Shown one piece after another: positions 2,350 to 14,767 of a DNA stretch of 31,403 nt; the stretch's first letter is position 1, and the number at the start of each line of letters is the position of its first letter. The stretch is from a virus. The notes under the pieces are model-generated. The model saw only the letters and a program-made list of their open reading frames with translations, did no database searches and was not told the DNA's origin. A program made the translations under genes and the position numbers. The stretch is taken from positions 1 through 31,403 of IMG/VR virus record IMGVR_UViG_3300009164_000225, one strand, 5' to 3'.

Positions 2350-3516
2350 ATGGAGTTTATACTTACTACTGCAATTAGAAAGTTATTGCGTTTAAAGAAA
2401 CGTATTAAAGTTATTAGAGGTGGAACATCAGCTGGTAAAACATTTGGTATTCTGCCTTTATTAATTGATAAAGCAATTAAAGAACCAATGCTTGAAATTA
2501 GTGTAGTATCTGAAAGCATACCACATTTACGTAGAGGTGCTTTAAAAGACTTTTTAAAGATTATAATGGCATTAGGTAGATATAATGATAGTCAGTTTAA
2601 TAAAAGTACTTTAAAATACACATTTGCAAATGAAAGTTATATTGAATTTTTTAGTGTAGACCAGCCAGATAAACTAAGAGGAGCAAGAAGAAATATATTA
2701 TATGTTAATGAGTGCAATAATATAGACTTTGAAAGTTACTATCAATTAGCAATTAGAACATCAGGTGATATATGGTTAGATTATAACCCTACTTCTGCAT
2801 TTTGGGTTGATAAAGAAATATTAACGCAATCAGATGTAGATTTTATTACATTAACTTATTTAGATAATGAAGCATTAAGTGATACAATAGTACAAGAAAT
2901 AGAAGCAGCAAAAGTAAAATCATTAACATCTACATATTGGGCAAACTGGTGGCAAGTATATGGCTTAGGTCAAACTGGTAGTTTAGAAGGTGTATGTATT
3001 CCAGATTGGCAAGAAATAGATTTACCACAAGATGCAAGAATACTATGTTATGGAATGGACTTTGGATATAGTAATGACCCAACAAGTTTAGTAACAATGT
3101 ATAAATATAATGATGCTTATATATTTGATGAATTAATTTATAAGAAAGGTTTATTAAATAGTGAAATATCAAATCTATTAAAAGCAAATAATGTAAATGA
3201 TATTATTTACGCTGATAGTGCAGAACCTAAATCAATAGCTGAATTAAATAGTTACGGTCATAATGTATTACCAGTATCAAAAGGAAAAGATAGTATCTTA
3301 TTTGGACTTAATTTAATTAATCAAAATAAAGTTTATATAACATCAAGAAGTAAGAACTTAATAAATGAATTGCGTAATTATATTTGGCAAACAGATAAGA
3401 CAGGAATTAAAATGAATAGACCAATAGATGCTTATAATCACGCAATAGATGCTATGCGTTATGCTATAACAAGTCAATTAGAAAATCCAAACAAAGGAAA
3501 CTATTTTATCTACTAA
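2350..3516 (+). CDS. terL: Terminase large subunit
   Basis: 388-aa ATP-driven DNA packaging motor with nuclease. The ATPase half shows Walker A GGTSAGKT (24-31), an LRGARR segment and Walker B ILYVNE (116-121), then a WLDYNP coupling motif. The nuclease half has three expected acidic sites: YGMDFGYSNDP, IIYADSAEP and HAIDAMRYA near the C-terminus. Order and length fit Terminase_3/PBSX-type large subunits. The stop overlaps the next ATG (TAATG). Confidence 0.95.
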   Translation: MEFILTTAIRKLLRLKKRIKVIRGGTSAGKTFGILPLLIDKAIKEPMLEISVVSESIPHLRRGALKDFLKIIMALGRYNDSQFNKSTLKYTFANESYIEFFSVDQPDKLRGARRNILYVNECNNIDFESYYQLAIRTSGDIWLDYNPTSAFWVDKEILTQSDVDFITLTYLDNEALSDTIVQEIEAAKVKSLTSTYWANWWQVYGLGQTGSLEGVCIPDWQEIDLPQDARILCYGMDFGYSNDPTSLVTMYKYNDAYIFDELIYKKGLLNSEISNLLKANNVNDIIYADSAEPKSIAELNSYGHNVLPVSKGKDSILFGLNLINQNKVYITSRSKNLINELRNYIWQTDKTGIKMNRPIDAYNHAIDAMRYAITSQLENPNKGNYFIY

Positions 3517-3869: not shown

Positions 3870-3959
3870 TTGAAAACCTTGATTAATAAAAAATCCCGCC
3901 CACAATTACAAGGAGAAAGGCGGATTGCAATTACAGAATTAAGACTTACAGAAATGTAG
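3870..3959 (+). CDS. Possible 29-aa TTG-start peptide or decayed gene fragment
   Basis: From TTG 3870 the frame reads MKTLINKKSRPQLQGERR and continues IAITELRLTEM to TAG 957-959. The segment R-QLQG...I-ITELR matches the protein at 20040-20207, and the DNA shares CAATTACAAGG and ATTACAGAATTAAGA with it. Bases 3894-3923 are unusually GC-rich for this genome and can pair (AATCC-GCC with GGCGGATT). It may be a micro-gene, a gene relic or a structured leader RNA. The stop lies in the stem-loop of the terminator. Confidence 0.35.
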   Translation: MKTLINKKSRPQLQGERRIAITELRLTEM

Positions 3960-3970
3960 GTCTTTTTTTT
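3942..3970 (+). terminator. Rho-independent terminator
   Basis: Nine-pair stem AGACTTACA (3942-3950) and TGTAGGTCT (3955-3963) with one G-U pair, a GAAA tetraloop and a run of Ts to 3970. It ends the terminase-side transcript just before the promoter-like repeat at 3972. Confidence 0.85.
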
Positions 3971-4014: not shown

Positions 4015-4692
4015 ATGAAGTTACAGATTACAATACCAACAAGTTTAGATGAAATTACATTAGAGCAGTATCAAAAGTTTTTATCAATAGCTAAAGATAA
4101 TCCAGATAGTGAATTTCTACAACATAAAATGGTTGAAATATTTTGTGGTATAGATTTAAAGAATGCTGCTAAAATAAGTTATAAAGATGTAAATGAAATA
4201 ACAACTAACTTATCAAATCTATTTAATCAAAAGTATGATTTAAAAAGAACATTTAAGTTAGGTAATACAGAGTTTGGTTTTATAACTAACCTTGATGAAA
4301 TAACACTTGGAGAATATACTGATTTAGATAAGTACATAAGTGATTGGGATAAGATGCATAATGCTATGGCAGTATTATATAGACCAATTACAAAGAAGTT
4401 AAAAGATAAATATCAAATAGAAGAATACAATGGTAGTTATACATATTGTGATGTTATGAAATATGCTCCAGTAGATGTTGTTTTAGGTGCAGTGGTTTTT
4501 TTTTACAATTTAGGCAACGAGTTATTGAAATCTACGATAGTTTATTTGGAGAACAACAAGGAGTTTCAGAATATAGTAAACAATCACAATTTGGAAGTAA
4601 ATGGGGTTGGTATTCATCATTCTATGCTATTGCTCAAGGAGATGTTAGAAGATTTGAAGATATTTCAAAACTTAAATTATCAGTTGCATTAA
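4015..4692 (+). CDS. Tail assembly chaperone-like protein (zero-frame product)
   Basis: 225 aa. It resembles a Bacteroidota phage tail family that opens with ITLEQYQKFL, carries FGFITNLDEITLGEYTDLD near 90-108, and AMAVLYRP near 119-126. The zero-frame end contains FFYNLGNELLKSTIVYL and GIHHSMLLLKEMLEDLK, which also looks like conserved protein. A run of nine Ts at 4496-4504 lies where the frame can slip by -1 into a second open frame ending at 4751. By analogy with lambda G/GT this would yield a short and a long chaperone that load the tape measure. Sited before the other tail genes. Confidence 0.65.
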   Translation: MKLQITIPTSLDEITLEQYQKFLSIAKDNPDSEFLQHKMVEIFCGIDLKNAAKISYKDVNEITTNLSNLFNQKYDLKRTFKLGNTEFGFITNLDEITLGEYTDLDKYISDWDKMHNAMAVLYRPITKKLKDKYQIEEYNGSYTYCDVMKYAPVDVVLGAVVFFYNLGNELLKSTIVYLENNKEFQNIVNNHNLEVNGVGIHHSMLLLKEMLEDLKIFQNLNYQLH

Positions 4693-4751
4693 CATATTTA
4701 ACATTTGAGAAAGAAAAGAACCAAATAGAAATGGATTTAATAAAAAAATAA
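4015..4751 (+). CDS. Tail assembly chaperone-like protein, -1 frameshift product
   Basis: Slipping at T TTT TTT (4497-4503) gives a 245-aa product whose end reads SKQSQFGSKWGWYSSFYAIA, then QGDVRRFEDISKLKLSVALT, then a charged tail. This frame uses the A/T-ending codons typical of the genome (gaa, caa, gga, aga), while the zero frame here uses rarer codons. Its TAA at 4749-4751 overlaps the next ATG, as genes here usually do, whereas the zero frame stops 58 bases earlier. Programmed slippage is my preferred reading; a homopolymer length error or mutation is the alternative. Confidence 0.6.
4497..4503 (+). other. Slippery heptamer T TTT TTT
   Basis: Within the nine-T run 4496-4504, zero-frame codons are GTT TTT TTT TAC. 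Both in-frame TTT codons can re-pair after a one-base backward slip, then reading continues TTA CAA TTT AGG. No obvious downstream pseudoknot was identified by eye. Confidence 0.55.
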
Positions 4752-5215
4752 TGAAAGGATTTTACCAAATAACAACAACAATAAAAGACCAATTATACAA
4801 AGATGCTTTTGTAAATACAGTATCAGCTGGAGATATATTTGAAGTAGATTTAAACAAGCAAACTATATTCCCATTATCACATATAATTGTAAACAATGCT
4901 CAATACAATGGTAATACTTGGATATTTAATATATCAGTATTATGTATGGATGTAGTTGATTTTAGCAAAACAGAAGTAACAGACCAATTTTTAACAAATG
5001 ATAATGAACAAGATGTACTACATACACAACTAATGGTTATTAATAGACTCTTAGAAGTATTGCGTAGAGGCAGTTTATTTGATGATTTATATCAATTACA
5101 AGGAACACCTAATTGTGAACCATTTGTAGATAGATTTGAAAATAGAATAGCAGGTTGGACAGTTACATTTGATGTAATGGTTGCTAATGAAATGACAAGT
5201 TGTGATGAATGCTAA
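4751..5215 (+). CDS. Tail completion/terminator-like structural protein
   Basis: 154 aa. It begins MKGFYQITTTIKDQL and has VNTVSAGDIFEVDLNKQTIF, CMDVVDFSKTE and RFENRIAGWTVTFDVMVAN, the pattern of a small beta-rich virion protein found next to the gp10-like gene in Bacteroidota siphophages. Size and position suit a tail terminator or tail-to-head joining protein, but this role is inferred. Its ATG overlaps the -1 frame stop of the upstream gene. Confidence 0.55.
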   Translation: MKGFYQITTTIKDQLYKDAFVNTVSAGDIFEVDLNKQTIFPLSHIIVNNAQYNGNTWIFNISVLCMDVVDFSKTEVTDQFLTNDNEQDVLHTQLMVINRLLEVLRRGSLFDDLYQLQGTPNCEPFVDRFENRIAGWTVTFDVMVANEMTSCDEC

Positions 5216-5757: not shown

Positions 5758-6846
5758 ATGAAAGCAATATTAATAAGAAGTCCATATTTTACAGTAATAG
5801 ATGAAACATCACAATTAGGAAGTAAAGTTGAATTATTTATTTGGAATAAAGGAGAAACAGAACCAACTGTACCTACTTATACTTTAAGTAAAAAAGCAGC
5901 ATCAGCATCACAAACTAAAAATGAATATAATATATCTAATTATATAAAAGAATACATTGATATAATAAAACCTACTTATGATTATAGTACAATAGAAGAA
6001 AGTACTAAACAATGGTGTTATGTAAAAGTTAAAAGATATACTGAAGAAACTATAAATGATTTTGTATTATTAAATGAAACATTATATAGTGCTTTTAATG
6101 GATATATAGATTATTTAAGTGGTATTCAAATATCTACAAATAATAATTATAATATATTAACAAATTTTAGGATAAATAAAACATATAAATATTATAGATA
6201 TGGTGGAGAAAAAATTCCATTTATAAATATATTTATTGCTGAAAAAGATGATGTTAGTTATCAAGTTAAATATAGTGATTTGAATGGTGATAATGAAGAA
6301 ATATTTACAATAGTAGATAATCCTGCATTTGATTATTTATTTTCAGTTCCTATAAGTAATGTTGAAAATACTATTTTTAAAGATGGTAATATAATTGAAA
6401 TATTAGTTGATGGAAATTCTGTATTTAAAGTATTATTTATTCCAGAATGCGAAAATAAATATACACCAATGTTATGTTCATTTGTAAATGAATTTGGTGG
6501 TTGGGATTTTATTACATTTTTTAAAGCAAAAACAGAAAGTTGGGAAATTAAAAATAAAGAATATAATTTATTGCCTAATAGTTTAGAATACAATCCATCA
6601 AGAGGAGAAAGTAAATTCTTTAATTATGAAGCTAAACAAAGTATTAAAATAAATACAGGTTGGGTTGAAGAATATTATAATGATTTAATAAAAAACTTAT
6701 TGACTTCAGAAACTATTTTATTAGATAATAAACCAGTTAAATTAAAAACAATGACAACTGATTTAAAAACATCATTACAAGATAAAATGATTAACTATAC
6801 AATAGAATTTGAATATAATTATAATCAAATTAATAATGTAATATAA
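5758..6846 (+). CDS. Tail structural protein, unknown role
   Basis: 362 aa starting MKAILIRSPYFTVIDETSQL, with many short beta-type segments and aromatic residues and no membrane segment. N-terminal IRSPYFVxI is typical of a Bacteroidota phage tail-tip gene found before the large baseplate protein. No catalytic motif is seen. The stop overlaps the next ATG (TAATG), indicating coupled synthesis with the 850-aa protein. Possible distal tail or baseplate component, inferred from position. Confidence 0.55.
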   Translation: MKAILIRSPYFTVIDETSQLGSKVELFIWNKGETEPTVPTYTLSKKAASASQTKNEYNISNYIKEYIDIIKPTYDYSTIEESTKQWCYVKVKRYTEETINDFVLLNETLYSAFNGYIDYLSGIQISTNNNYNILTNFRINKTYKYYRYGGEKIPFINIFIAEKDDVSYQVKYSDLNGDNEEIFTIVDNPAFDYLFSVPISNVENTIFKDGNIIEILVDGNSVFKVLFIPECENKYTPMLCSFVNEFGGWDFITFFKAKTESWEIKNKEYNLLPNSLEYNPSRGESKFFNYEAKQSIKINTGWVEEYYNDLIKNLLTSETILLDNKPVKLKTMTTDLKTSLQDKMINYTIEFEYNYNQINNVI

Positions 6847-9398: not shown

Positions 9399-9556
9399 TA
9401 AAATTAATAATTGAAATGCTACAAATGGATGAGCATTATGGGCAATCTGAAATAATAGAAATAGCAAAAGGTAAATATGAATTACCAGCTACATTTTCAG
9501 ATACATTTAAACAATTTAAAAGACAATTAAAAGAAAAGAAAAATGGCAGAAACTAA
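9395..9556 (+). CDS. 53-aa hypothetical protein between baseplate and tape measure genes
   Basis: The ATG overlaps the previous stop (ATGA) and the end overlaps the tape measure start by 14 bases. Begins MIKLIIEMLQMDEHYGQSEI and ends with a Lys/Arg-rich helix. Overlaps on both sides support it as a real gene; function unknown. Confidence 0.55.
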   Translation: MIKLIIEMLQMDEHYGQSEIIEIAKGKYELPATFSDTFKQFKRQLKEKKNGRN

Positions 9557-11429
9557 AACTATAAACTTAGAAGTAAATTCTAACTTAAATAAAACTGAAC
9601 AAGCAGTTACATCTTTAAAAAGTGAATTAAGAAAAGCACAAGCAGAAGTAGCATCTTTAAGTGATAAGTTTGGTGCAACATCTAAAGAAGCTATTGAAGC
9701 AGCTAAAAGAGCAGCAGAATTAAAAGATAGAATTGGTGATGCTAAGAATTTAACAGATGCCTTTAATCCAGATGCAAAGTTTAAAGCATTAGCTGGTGCT
9801 GCTAATATTGCTGCTGGAGCATTAGCTGGTTTTGAAGGTGCTATGGGATTAGTTGGTGTACAATCAGAAGAAGCACAACAAGCTATTTTAAAAGTACAAT
9901 CAGCATTAGCATTATCACAAGGTTTAAATGTTTTACAAGAAATACCAGACACATTTAGAAATATTAAAGCAGTAGCTATAAATGCTTTTAATGGAATAAA
10001 AGGAGCTATTGGAGCAACAGGAATAGGTTTATTAATTGTTGCTTTAGGAGTACTTTATACAAATTGGGATAGTATAAAAAAAGCAGTTACAACTGCAATA
10101 CCAGCTTTTAATAATATAGGTGCAGTATTTAATAAAACAAAAGAAGTAATTTTTGGGATTGGTAATGCAATTATACAATATTTAATAACACCATTTAAGG
10201 TTTTAGGTAAACTTATAATGGGTGATTTTAAAGGTGCTTTAAATGATATTAAAAATGGTTTTAATATAATTGGTAATTATGAAAAAGGAGCATCAAAAGA
10301 AAGACAAGACCAAGCAGATGCAGCAGCAAAAGAAAGATTAGAAAAACAAATTAAAAATAAAGAAAATGAAATTGCAGTAGCAAAAGCAGCTGGAAAAGAT
10401 ACATATAATTTAGAAAAAGATAATCTACATAGAAAATTAATTTTAAATAAAGAAAATCAAGAAGAACTTGAAAAATTAAGACAAGAAGAAAAAATATTAG
10501 ATGCAGCACATAAAAAAGATTTACAAGAAAAACAAAAAGCACATCAAAATGAATTAAATAGATTATCAAAAGAAGCAGAAGCAGAAGCTAAAAGATTAAG
10601 AGAAGAAAAAGAAAAAGAAGAACAAGAATTAGCCAAAACAAAAAGAGATAAACAAAGAGAAGATGCTTATGCAGTTTTAGATGAAATAGAAAAAGCTGCA
10701 AAAGAAAATGCAGATAGGGTAAAAACTGAAAGTGAAAAAGCAATTGATGATGAAAATTCACGATATGAAAAATTAAGAAAAGCTGCTGAGGATGCTGGTA
10801 TGTTACCAGAACAAATTGAACAATTAGAAATACAACATTTAAATAATTTAAATGATATTAAATTAGCAGCACAACAAAAGGATTATGAAAATGAAAAGAC
10901 TATTGATGAAGCAAAGTTAGCACAAAAGAAAGCTATTGAAAATGCTAAAATGGAGTTATTAAATTCAGCATTTGGAGCAGCAAAAGGTTTATTTGAAAAA
11001 AATAAAGGTGTACAAAAAGCAATTATAATAGCTGAAAATGCTATGGCTTTATCAAGTTTAGTAAGAAGTACAATACAAGCAGTTGGAAAAGATAACGTAG
11101 CATCTCCTACTACTTTAGGTATGCCTTGGAGTGGTATTCATATTGCTCAAGGTGCTATTGGTGCTGCTAATATTGTAATGAGTACAACAAAAGCATTAAG
11201 TGCTTTAGGTGGTGGTTCAGCAGGTTCATCTCCATCTATGGGAAGTACAGTTGGCGGTGGTGCTGCTGCTCCAAGTTTTAATGTAGTAGGAAATGCAGGA
11301 GTAAATCAAATAGCAGAAACTATGAATAGACAACAACAAAGTCCAATACAAGCATATGTAGTAGCACAAAATGTAACTACTGCTCAATCATTAAATAGAA
11401 ATATAGTTAGTAACGCAAGTTTAGGATAA
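9543..11429 (+). CDS. Tail tape measure protein
   Basis: 628 aa. It sets tail length and leaves the tail at DNA ejection. Residues 1-75 are Ala/Lys-rich coiled coil; a hydrophobic segment IGATGIGLLIVALGVLYTNW lies near 155-175; residues 250-480 are a long charged coiled coil rich in KEK and EAE repeats; the end has a Gly/Ala/Ser-rich region with IHIAQGAIGAANIVMSTTKA. This order is typical. At about 1.5 angstroms per residue the length predicts a tail near 90-100 nm. It follows the baseplate gene, the reverse of the usual order. Confidence 0.8.
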   Translation: MAETKTINLEVNSNLNKTEQAVTSLKSELRKAQAEVASLSDKFGATSKEAIEAAKRAAELKDRIGDAKNLTDAFNPDAKFKALAGAANIAAGALAGFEGAMGLVGVQSEEAQQAILKVQSALALSQGLNVLQEIPDTFRNIKAVAINAFNGIKGAIGATGIGLLIVALGVLYTNWDSIKKAVTTAIPAFNNIGAVFNKTKEVIFGIGNAIIQYLITPFKVLGKLIMGDFKGALNDIKNGFNIIGNYEKGASKERQDQADAAAKERLEKQIKNKENEIAVAKAAGKDTYNLEKDNLHRKLILNKENQEELEKLRQEEKILDAAHKKDLQEKQKAHQNELNRLSKEAEAEAKRLREEKEKEEQELAKTKRDKQREDAYAVLDEIEKAAKENADRVKTESEKAIDDENSRYEKLRKAAEDAGMLPEQIEQLEIQHLNNLNDIKLAAQQKDYENEKTIDEAKLAQKKAIENAKMELLNSAFGAAKGLFEKNKGVQKAIIIAENAMALSSLVRSTIQAVGKDNVASPTTLGMPWSGIHIAQGAIGAANIVMSTTKALSALGGGSAGSSPSMGSTVGGGAAAPSFNVVGNAGVNQIAETMNRQQQSPIQAYVVAQNVTTAQSLNRNIVSNASLG

Positions 11430-14242: not shown

Positions 14243-14767
14243 ATGGCTTGTGATATTAGTTTAGGTAGATTAGAACCTTGCAAAGATAGCAATGGTGGAT
14301 TAAAAGCAGTTTACTTTGTAAATTGGGGAGAAGTAGATGGAATTACTTATGGTACAGGTGAGCAAACAGATGCTATTAATGGTTTTAATGGTGACCCAAA
14401 TGCTTACAGATATGAGTTAAAAGGTAATTCATCTTTTACTCAAACAATTACTTCTTCAAGAGAAAATGGAACTACATTTTTTCAACAAGAATTAGCATTA
14501 ACTTTAAAAAAATTATCAATAGTAGACCACAAACAAATTAAACTTTTGGCTTATGGTAGACCACAAGTAATTGTTGAAGATAACAATAGTAACTTCTTCT
14601 TTTGTGGATTAGAACACGGAATGGATGTAACAGGTGGAACTATTGTAACTGGTGCTGCTATGGGTGATTTAAGTGGTTATACATTAACACTTACAGGAAT
14701 GGAACCAGTACCAGCAAACTTCTTATTAAATGGTATAGGTGATTTTAATGTTATTATTACAGATTAA
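14243..14767 (+). CDS. Major tail tube protein
   Basis: 174 aa. It begins MACDISLGRLEPCKDSNGG, then LKAVYFVNWGEVDGI, with beta-rich remainder containing QTITSSRENGTTFFQQELAL and ALxxDLSGYTLTLTGMEP. This matches tail tube subunits of Bacteroidota siphophages. It lies between two terminators with its own A-rich leader, in keeping with separate high-level expression. Its distance from the tape measure gene is unusual. Confidence 0.75.
   Translation: MACDISLGRLEPCKDSNGGLKAVYFVNWGEVDGITYGTGEQTDAINGFNGDPNAYRYELKGNSSFTQTITSSRENGTTFFQQELALTLKKLSIVDHKQIKLLAYGRPQVIVEDNNSNFFFCGLEHGMDVTGGTIVTGAAMGDLSGYTLTLTGMEPVPANFLLNGIGDFNVIITD

Follow-up and report, generated by a model that had tools for sequence, protein, structure and literature searches.

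The stretch of DNA analyzed here, a viral window of 31,403 nt taken as a whole, carries on its + strand a gene with two alternative C-terminal ends. The zero-frame open reading frame (4015..4692, strand +) encodes a 225-aa protein, which was studied through an AF2 model and an alignment of 47 lineages. Late in this frame lies a run of nine T residues (T9, 4496-4504, strand +), and no other T run of nine or more occurs in the window. The zero-frame codons across the run are GTT TTT TTT TAC, and the heptamer T TTT TTT occupies 4497-4503, exactly where the initial annotation had located it. This heptamer is conserved, lies in the right phase and has the X XXY YYZ form of a -1 ribosomal frameshift site. 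The run also has the length, about nine or more A or T residues, that is expected of a transcriptional slippage site, and T9 or T10 is found in 222/222 related loci. Past the slip, the zero frame continues for 62 codons and the -1 frame for 82. The -1 extension (4497..4751, strand +), which reads FFLQFRQRV...KWGWYSSFYAIAQGD...LIKK, ends at a TAA stop at 4749-4751 and is referred to below as the T-like domain. Residues 1-163 of the zero-frame product are common to the trans-frame product, and residues 164-225 belong to the zero frame only. The two frames share 61 codons following the Tyr codon (4507..4689, strand +), and a -1-only tail (4693..4748, strand +) lies 3' of the zero-frame stop. All peptides quoted in the initial annotation for both frames are present in these translations, and the -1 stop does overlap the next start codon, the last A of TAA being the first base of the ATG at 4751.

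The gene that begins at this ATG (4751..5215, strand +) encodes 154 aa of unassigned function and lies immediately downstream of the slip gene in all loci in which it was located (213/213). Upstream is a PBSX-type terminase large subunit gene (2350..3516, strand +), matched by TIGR01547 at 3.7e-29, just under the cutoff of that model; the terminase gene precedes the slip gene in 202/202 loci. A probable tape measure gene (9543..11429, strand +) is weakly assigned from its length, its composition and weak matches to the tape measure families phrog_9483 (0.03) and phrog_1538 (0.12). This candidate lies downstream of the slip gene, several genes apart, in all 42 loci in which it was found (42/42). 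The tape measure protein is the expected partner of a G/GT chaperone. A candidate for the tube protein is encoded at 14243-14767. An intrinsic-terminator-like hairpin followed by T8 (3941..3970, strand +; one found, 0.1 expected) ends about 45 bases 5' of the ATG of the slip gene, and it suggests that the operon beginning with the slip gene has its own promoter. At 86-1677, several small ORFs in a row have MKQTAVE-like and AKEMEKQQ-like stretches in common, a pattern that duplication of a small gene could leave.

Relatives of the slip gene were collected in several ways. A first set comprised 80 viral relatives at 62-96% identity, and all of these (80/80) have T9 in the same phase with two open frames. 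Further relatives came from searches with Nonlabens phage P12024L, in which most matches had 25-34% identity, and more loci were fetched with a profile of the -1 domain or with protein patterns; these loci were then searched for runs of at least six Ts or As. Because these loci were picked by protein patterns and any such run was scanned, T9 was not a requirement for selection. The relatives amount to 222 loci, or 47 lineages at less than 85% identity, with GC contents of 25-48%. The run is T9 in 220/222 loci and T10 in 2/222, with identical phase and both frames open, and no relative with a 7-T or non-homopolymer slip site occurs among the pattern-fetched loci. The initial annotation had called for a check in homologues, which finds the T run and both frames conserved across the 222 loci and 47 lineages; the case that it raised against itself, a run of 7 or 10 Ts leaving a single intact frame, is absent, and both T10 relatives retain the slip architecture. 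The zero frame extends 55-84 codons beyond the slip in 45/47 lineages. It is short in P12024L (25 codons) and in one other lineage, L085 (16 codons), so the distal 40 zero-frame residues are dispensable in some phages. Given its conservation in all homologous loci, T9 with two open frames is, by this comparison, far beyond chance. Matches in the genome collection include MAG contigs of Bacteroidetes, Winogradskyella and Flavobacteriaceae, which makes Bacteroidota the most likely hosts, and the same arrangement is present in the isolates Nonlabens phages P12024L and P12024S. Homopolymers are prone to error, but an error in sequencing or assembly, or gene decay with a true frame break, has a negligible probability and is already refuted through conservation of the run and both frames, since identical T9 and frames recur in 222 loci from many metagenomes, from MAG contigs and from the isolates P12024L and P12024S.

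The position of start codons bears on how the -1 domain is reached. In the -1 frame of the window, no ATG, GTG or TTG lies between the upstream stop and the WGWY motif, and on this ground other possible starts of the -1 domain were discarded. An ATG for the domain is absent in 43/47 lineages, and a slip is therefore needed. Conservation of the -1 protein sequence begins right at the slip (FFL). One base of the slip site is silent in both frames (TTT/TTC, TTA/CTA) and is T everywhere, with a log10 P of -5.1 against local codon usage, a value computed over related lineages. Two separate genes, with the T domain made by re-initiation and without slippage, would account for P12024L, in which the zero-frame stop overlaps a -1-frame ATG and two genes are annotated. 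This explanation is very improbable in view of the lineages that have no ATG, the lack of any start codon before WGWY in the window and the conservation that starts at the slip. In P12024L (L082) the overlap at 6515-6535 reads TTAATGG with the ATG in frame, and re-initiation there could give a free T domain.

Selection on the two C-termini was assessed by classing isolated changes by their effect in each frame, in 65 independent pairs and with an assumed transition weight of 3. In the overlap, changes silent in both frames used 24/534 opportunities (0.045), those silent in the -1 frame only 142/15062 (0.0094; one fifth of the doubly silent rate, P 3e-9), those silent in the zero frame only 84/14098 (0.0060; P 1e-12 against doubly silent), and those silent in neither frame 55/25608 (0.0021). 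Changes silent in one frame only are thus 5-8 times rarer than doubly silent ones, and no stop-creating change was seen in either frame of the overlap in these pairs. The doubly silent rate (0.045) does not differ from the upstream silent rate (0.035; P 0.24), which means that mutation is not suppressed in the overlap and that no RNA-level constraint is necessary. Over the 20 codons nearest the slip the dominant constraint is on the zero frame, and substitutions there that are silent in the -1 frame and change the zero frame are 26 times rarer than doubly silent ones (P 6e-13); further on, the dominant constraint is on the -1 frame. Distal zero-frame constraint is present and weaker (0.0123 vs 0.0217, P 8e-5), and distal zero-frame stops arose in 0/418 opportunities (P 0.007). 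The -1 synonymous rate is 0.0217 in the -1-only tail and 0.0103 in the overlap.

Block-wise synonymous rates in groups of close relatives follow the same pattern: for each frame, the rate is reduced within the overlap and rises again beyond it, also in the next gene. Among the 26 pairs of the largest group, the three main overlap blocks have -1 synonymous proportions of 0.07, 0.105 and 0.138, compared with 0.216 for the -1-only tail and 0.22-0.40 for the next gene, and over the first 20 codons the zero frame is more constrained than the -1 frame. Since a few small groups have zero synonymous change in the -1-only tail as well, it is the larger groups that carry most of the pooled comparison. 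When the -1 codons were redrawn synonymously, the zero frame rarely stayed open to its observed length (per-lineage median, 0.9% of trials), and redrawing the zero-frame codons instead gave 0.2%; as the lineages are related, these values cannot be multiplied into an overall probability. Both frames of a single stretch are under purifying selection, the mark of overlapping genes, and on these substitution patterns both C-termini are maintained by selection as protein. The suggestion in the initial annotation that both overlapping frames are real protein is thus supported by dual purifying selection in 65 pairs and by frames that are both open in 47 lineages; an unconserved zero-frame C-terminus, which it had named as a counter-case, does not describe this family, as that C-terminus is under purifying selection. 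Were the -1 frame (T domain) the only one that matters, the long zero-frame extension would be an unselected shadow; in line with this, the zero-frame NGxGI motif is a mechanical shadow of the -1 KWGWY, and two lineages have short zero-frame extensions. The fivefold deficit of -1-silent, zero-changing substitutions disfavors the shadow reading and leaves it very improbable, as do the 0/544 stop-making opportunities used and the stronger constraint on the zero frame over the first 20 codons of the largest group.

The identity of the encoded protein was approached through structure prediction and family searches. The AF2 model of the zero-frame product (pLDDT 81) has a long helix at residues 153-180, which is broken by the slip at residue 163, and the -1 domain is modeled as all helical (pLDDT 75). 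A structural comparison lists a single PDB chain, 2ob9_B of the HK97 tail assembly chaperone (rmsd 3.5 over 66 aligned residues, Z 4.6), and this Z is a modest value that a common arrangement of elements can produce. Foldseek found nothing significant in the PDB for either the zero-frame or the -1 domain model, and a sequence-profile search of the PDB gave no match. Neither the window protein nor the -1 domain obtained a named function or a chaperone model from Pfam, NCBIfam or PHROG; the sequence family here is phrog_32199, whose function is unassigned, and one relative matches phrog_166 'tail protein' at 3e-5. BFVD matches are mostly uncharacterized phage proteins, including those of Nonlabens phage P12024S and Flavobacterium phage 6H, and two weak ones have chaperone or assembly names (E 0.17 and 0.36). 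According to a review, tail chaperone frameshift ORFs of different phages have low mutual sequence similarity (PMC5009743), so the lack of a family match is not decisive. Gp10 of Flavobacterium phage 6H, one of these structural matches, was considered as a case of the same slip and rejected, since it has T_TTT_TTC but its -1 frame stops at once. After gp10, an unannotated stretch of 6H (L230 10048-10351, minus strand) may encode a T-like domain in another frame (SMAESGVYGPEQGVRDTPLWEILIRMYDITKRSLDEEAAYKKLEKK), which may also be reached via recoding. A literature search, with most subscription papers outside its scope, found no report of the family or of a P12024 frameshift.

A frameshift near the end of the first ORF that gives a differing C-terminus, as in G/GT genes, is found here at the sequence level, in the slip site and in the selection on both ends. 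The slip gene probably encodes a tail assembly chaperone of the G/GT type, in a siphovirus-like phage of Bacteroidota, with a dual-coded C-terminus that belongs to G alone. This is the best reading of the locus, not a proven one, and the likeness to lambda G/GT proposed in the initial annotation finds modest backing in the HK97 chaperone fold match and in the tail-module context. Several points weigh on the other side: the window protein has no Pfam, NCBIfam or PHROG chaperone match, the HK97 Z score is modest and the chaperone-named or assembly-named BFVD matches are weak, the slip gene does not adjoin the tape measure gene, and the zero frame stops early in P12024L (25) and L085 (16), so that its distal 40 residues are not universal. 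The slip might instead yield a pair of isoforms of a different structural or regulatory protein, in keeping with a gene that lies next to the terminase and whose product no family model calls a chaperone. This is unlikely in the face of the modest HK97 chaperone fold match, the tail-protein profile match of a relative, the tail-module context and the G/GT-like architecture.

The tail assembly chaperone reading invites comparison with known systems. Lambda G/GT is alike in its -1 slip, its common N-terminal part, its longer T-domain product and its likely place in a tail operon of a long-tailed phage. The lambda slip is at GGGAAAG and leaves 5 G codons, whereas the present gene slips at T9 with about 62 codons left and dual selection; in lambda, G-T is flanked by the tube and tape measure genes, and the present gene follows the terminase, with several genes separating it from the tape measure candidate. 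HK97 gp13 (G; 2OB9) is alike in its annotated -1 frameshift product and may be alike in its N-terminal fold (Z 4.6 over 66 residues), but differs in having 4% identity in the structural alignment and about 5 G codons past a candidate GGGAAAA site. P2 E and E+E' also use a -1 slip on a T run (TTTTTTG), with 6 E codons past the slip and T6G in place of T9. The mycobacteriophages Bxb1 and D29 have annotated frameshifted tail assembly chaperones whose candidate overlaps, judged by open frames, span up to 49 codons in Bxb1 and 32 or more in D29; no sequence relation to the present gene was seen. Nonlabens phage P12024L genes 40 and 41 (phrog_32199, phrog_38404) are a true homologue with the same T9, terminase neighbor and WGWY domain, and differ in a zero-frame extension of just 25 codons and in their annotation as two separate hypothetical genes. 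The novelty with respect to lambda, HK97 and P2 is the long, dually selected overlap together with the universal T9.

The slip could be made by the ribosome or by RNA polymerase. The programmed -1 frameshift of the initial annotation is borne out as to the slip and the two C-termini, but the ribosome as the slipping machine is not established, as T9 also suits the polymerase. In transcriptional slippage, RNA polymerase would add or lose U at T9, and a fraction of the mRNA would then encode the -1 product by normal translation, so that the resulting proteins would be those of a ribosomal slip. The conserved unit in 222/222 loci is T9, not the 7-base heptamer. Across 711 further ORFs from these contigs, T_TTT_TTT occurs often in frame (80 observed vs 137 expected) and its avoidance is no stronger than that of out-of-frame T7, whereas T8 (6 vs 29.5 expected) and runs of T9 or longer (0 vs 3.7) are avoided; A9 occurs 6 times against 31 expected. 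Across these ordinary genes, T8-T9 and A9-A10 are strongly depleted, and A7-A8 and T7 mildly. No downstream RNA structure, whether a stable or covarying stem-loop or pseudoknot, was found 3' of the slip, which fits slippage by the polymerase. A stimulatory RNA structure is common at ribosomal frameshift sites but not obligatory, and some bacterial sites have none. A review reports transcription slippage in bacteria at runs of 9 As or Ts and a far lower shift-proneness of U_UUU_UUU than of A_AAA_AAG in E. coli, and both reports favor the polymerase (PMC5009743). Against it, the outer two Ts can be explained by the protein, which has Val/Leu/Ile/Phe before and Tyr/Trp/Leu after, long runs are possibly avoided owing to replication slippage, and lambda-type tail chaperones are described as users of ribosomal slippage (PMC5009743). 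Transcriptional slippage has close to an even chance. Since an invariant T9 can serve the polymerase as a slippage site too, ribosomal tandem -1 slippage and RNA polymerase slippage are about equally probable; the balance tips slightly toward the ribosome, which is the machine that slips in the lambda-type tail chaperones studied so far. That this group of Bacteroidota phages makes its tail chaperone pair via polymerase slippage at an invariant T9, with 55-84 codons serving two functional C-terminal domains, is a tentative proposal somewhat short of even probability.

Under the chaperone reading, standard decoding would give the 225-aa G-like protein, and slippage at T9 would direct a minority of products into the -1 frame, giving a 245-aa GT-like protein in which the first 163 residues are followed by a helical T-like domain of 82 residues. 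On the lambda model, the common part would form a coat on the tape measure protein, and the rare T domain would bring in the protein of the tail tube. The zero frame past the slip would encode the remainder of the C-terminal helix and a distal tail, both from T-domain DNA. An unannotated and very common family of Bacteroidota phages would thereby join the lambda-type tail frameshift genes, and two alternative C-termini can evidently be encoded in one stretch of DNA and retained by selection. The family would offer a natural test of the function of the G end, which lambda cannot offer since its G has 5 residues after the slip, and its invariant T9 makes ribosomal and transcriptional slippage separable in an experimentally simple system. 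T9 together with WGWY may also serve as a searchable landmark for tail genes in phages whose genes are mostly annotated as 'hypothetical protein'.
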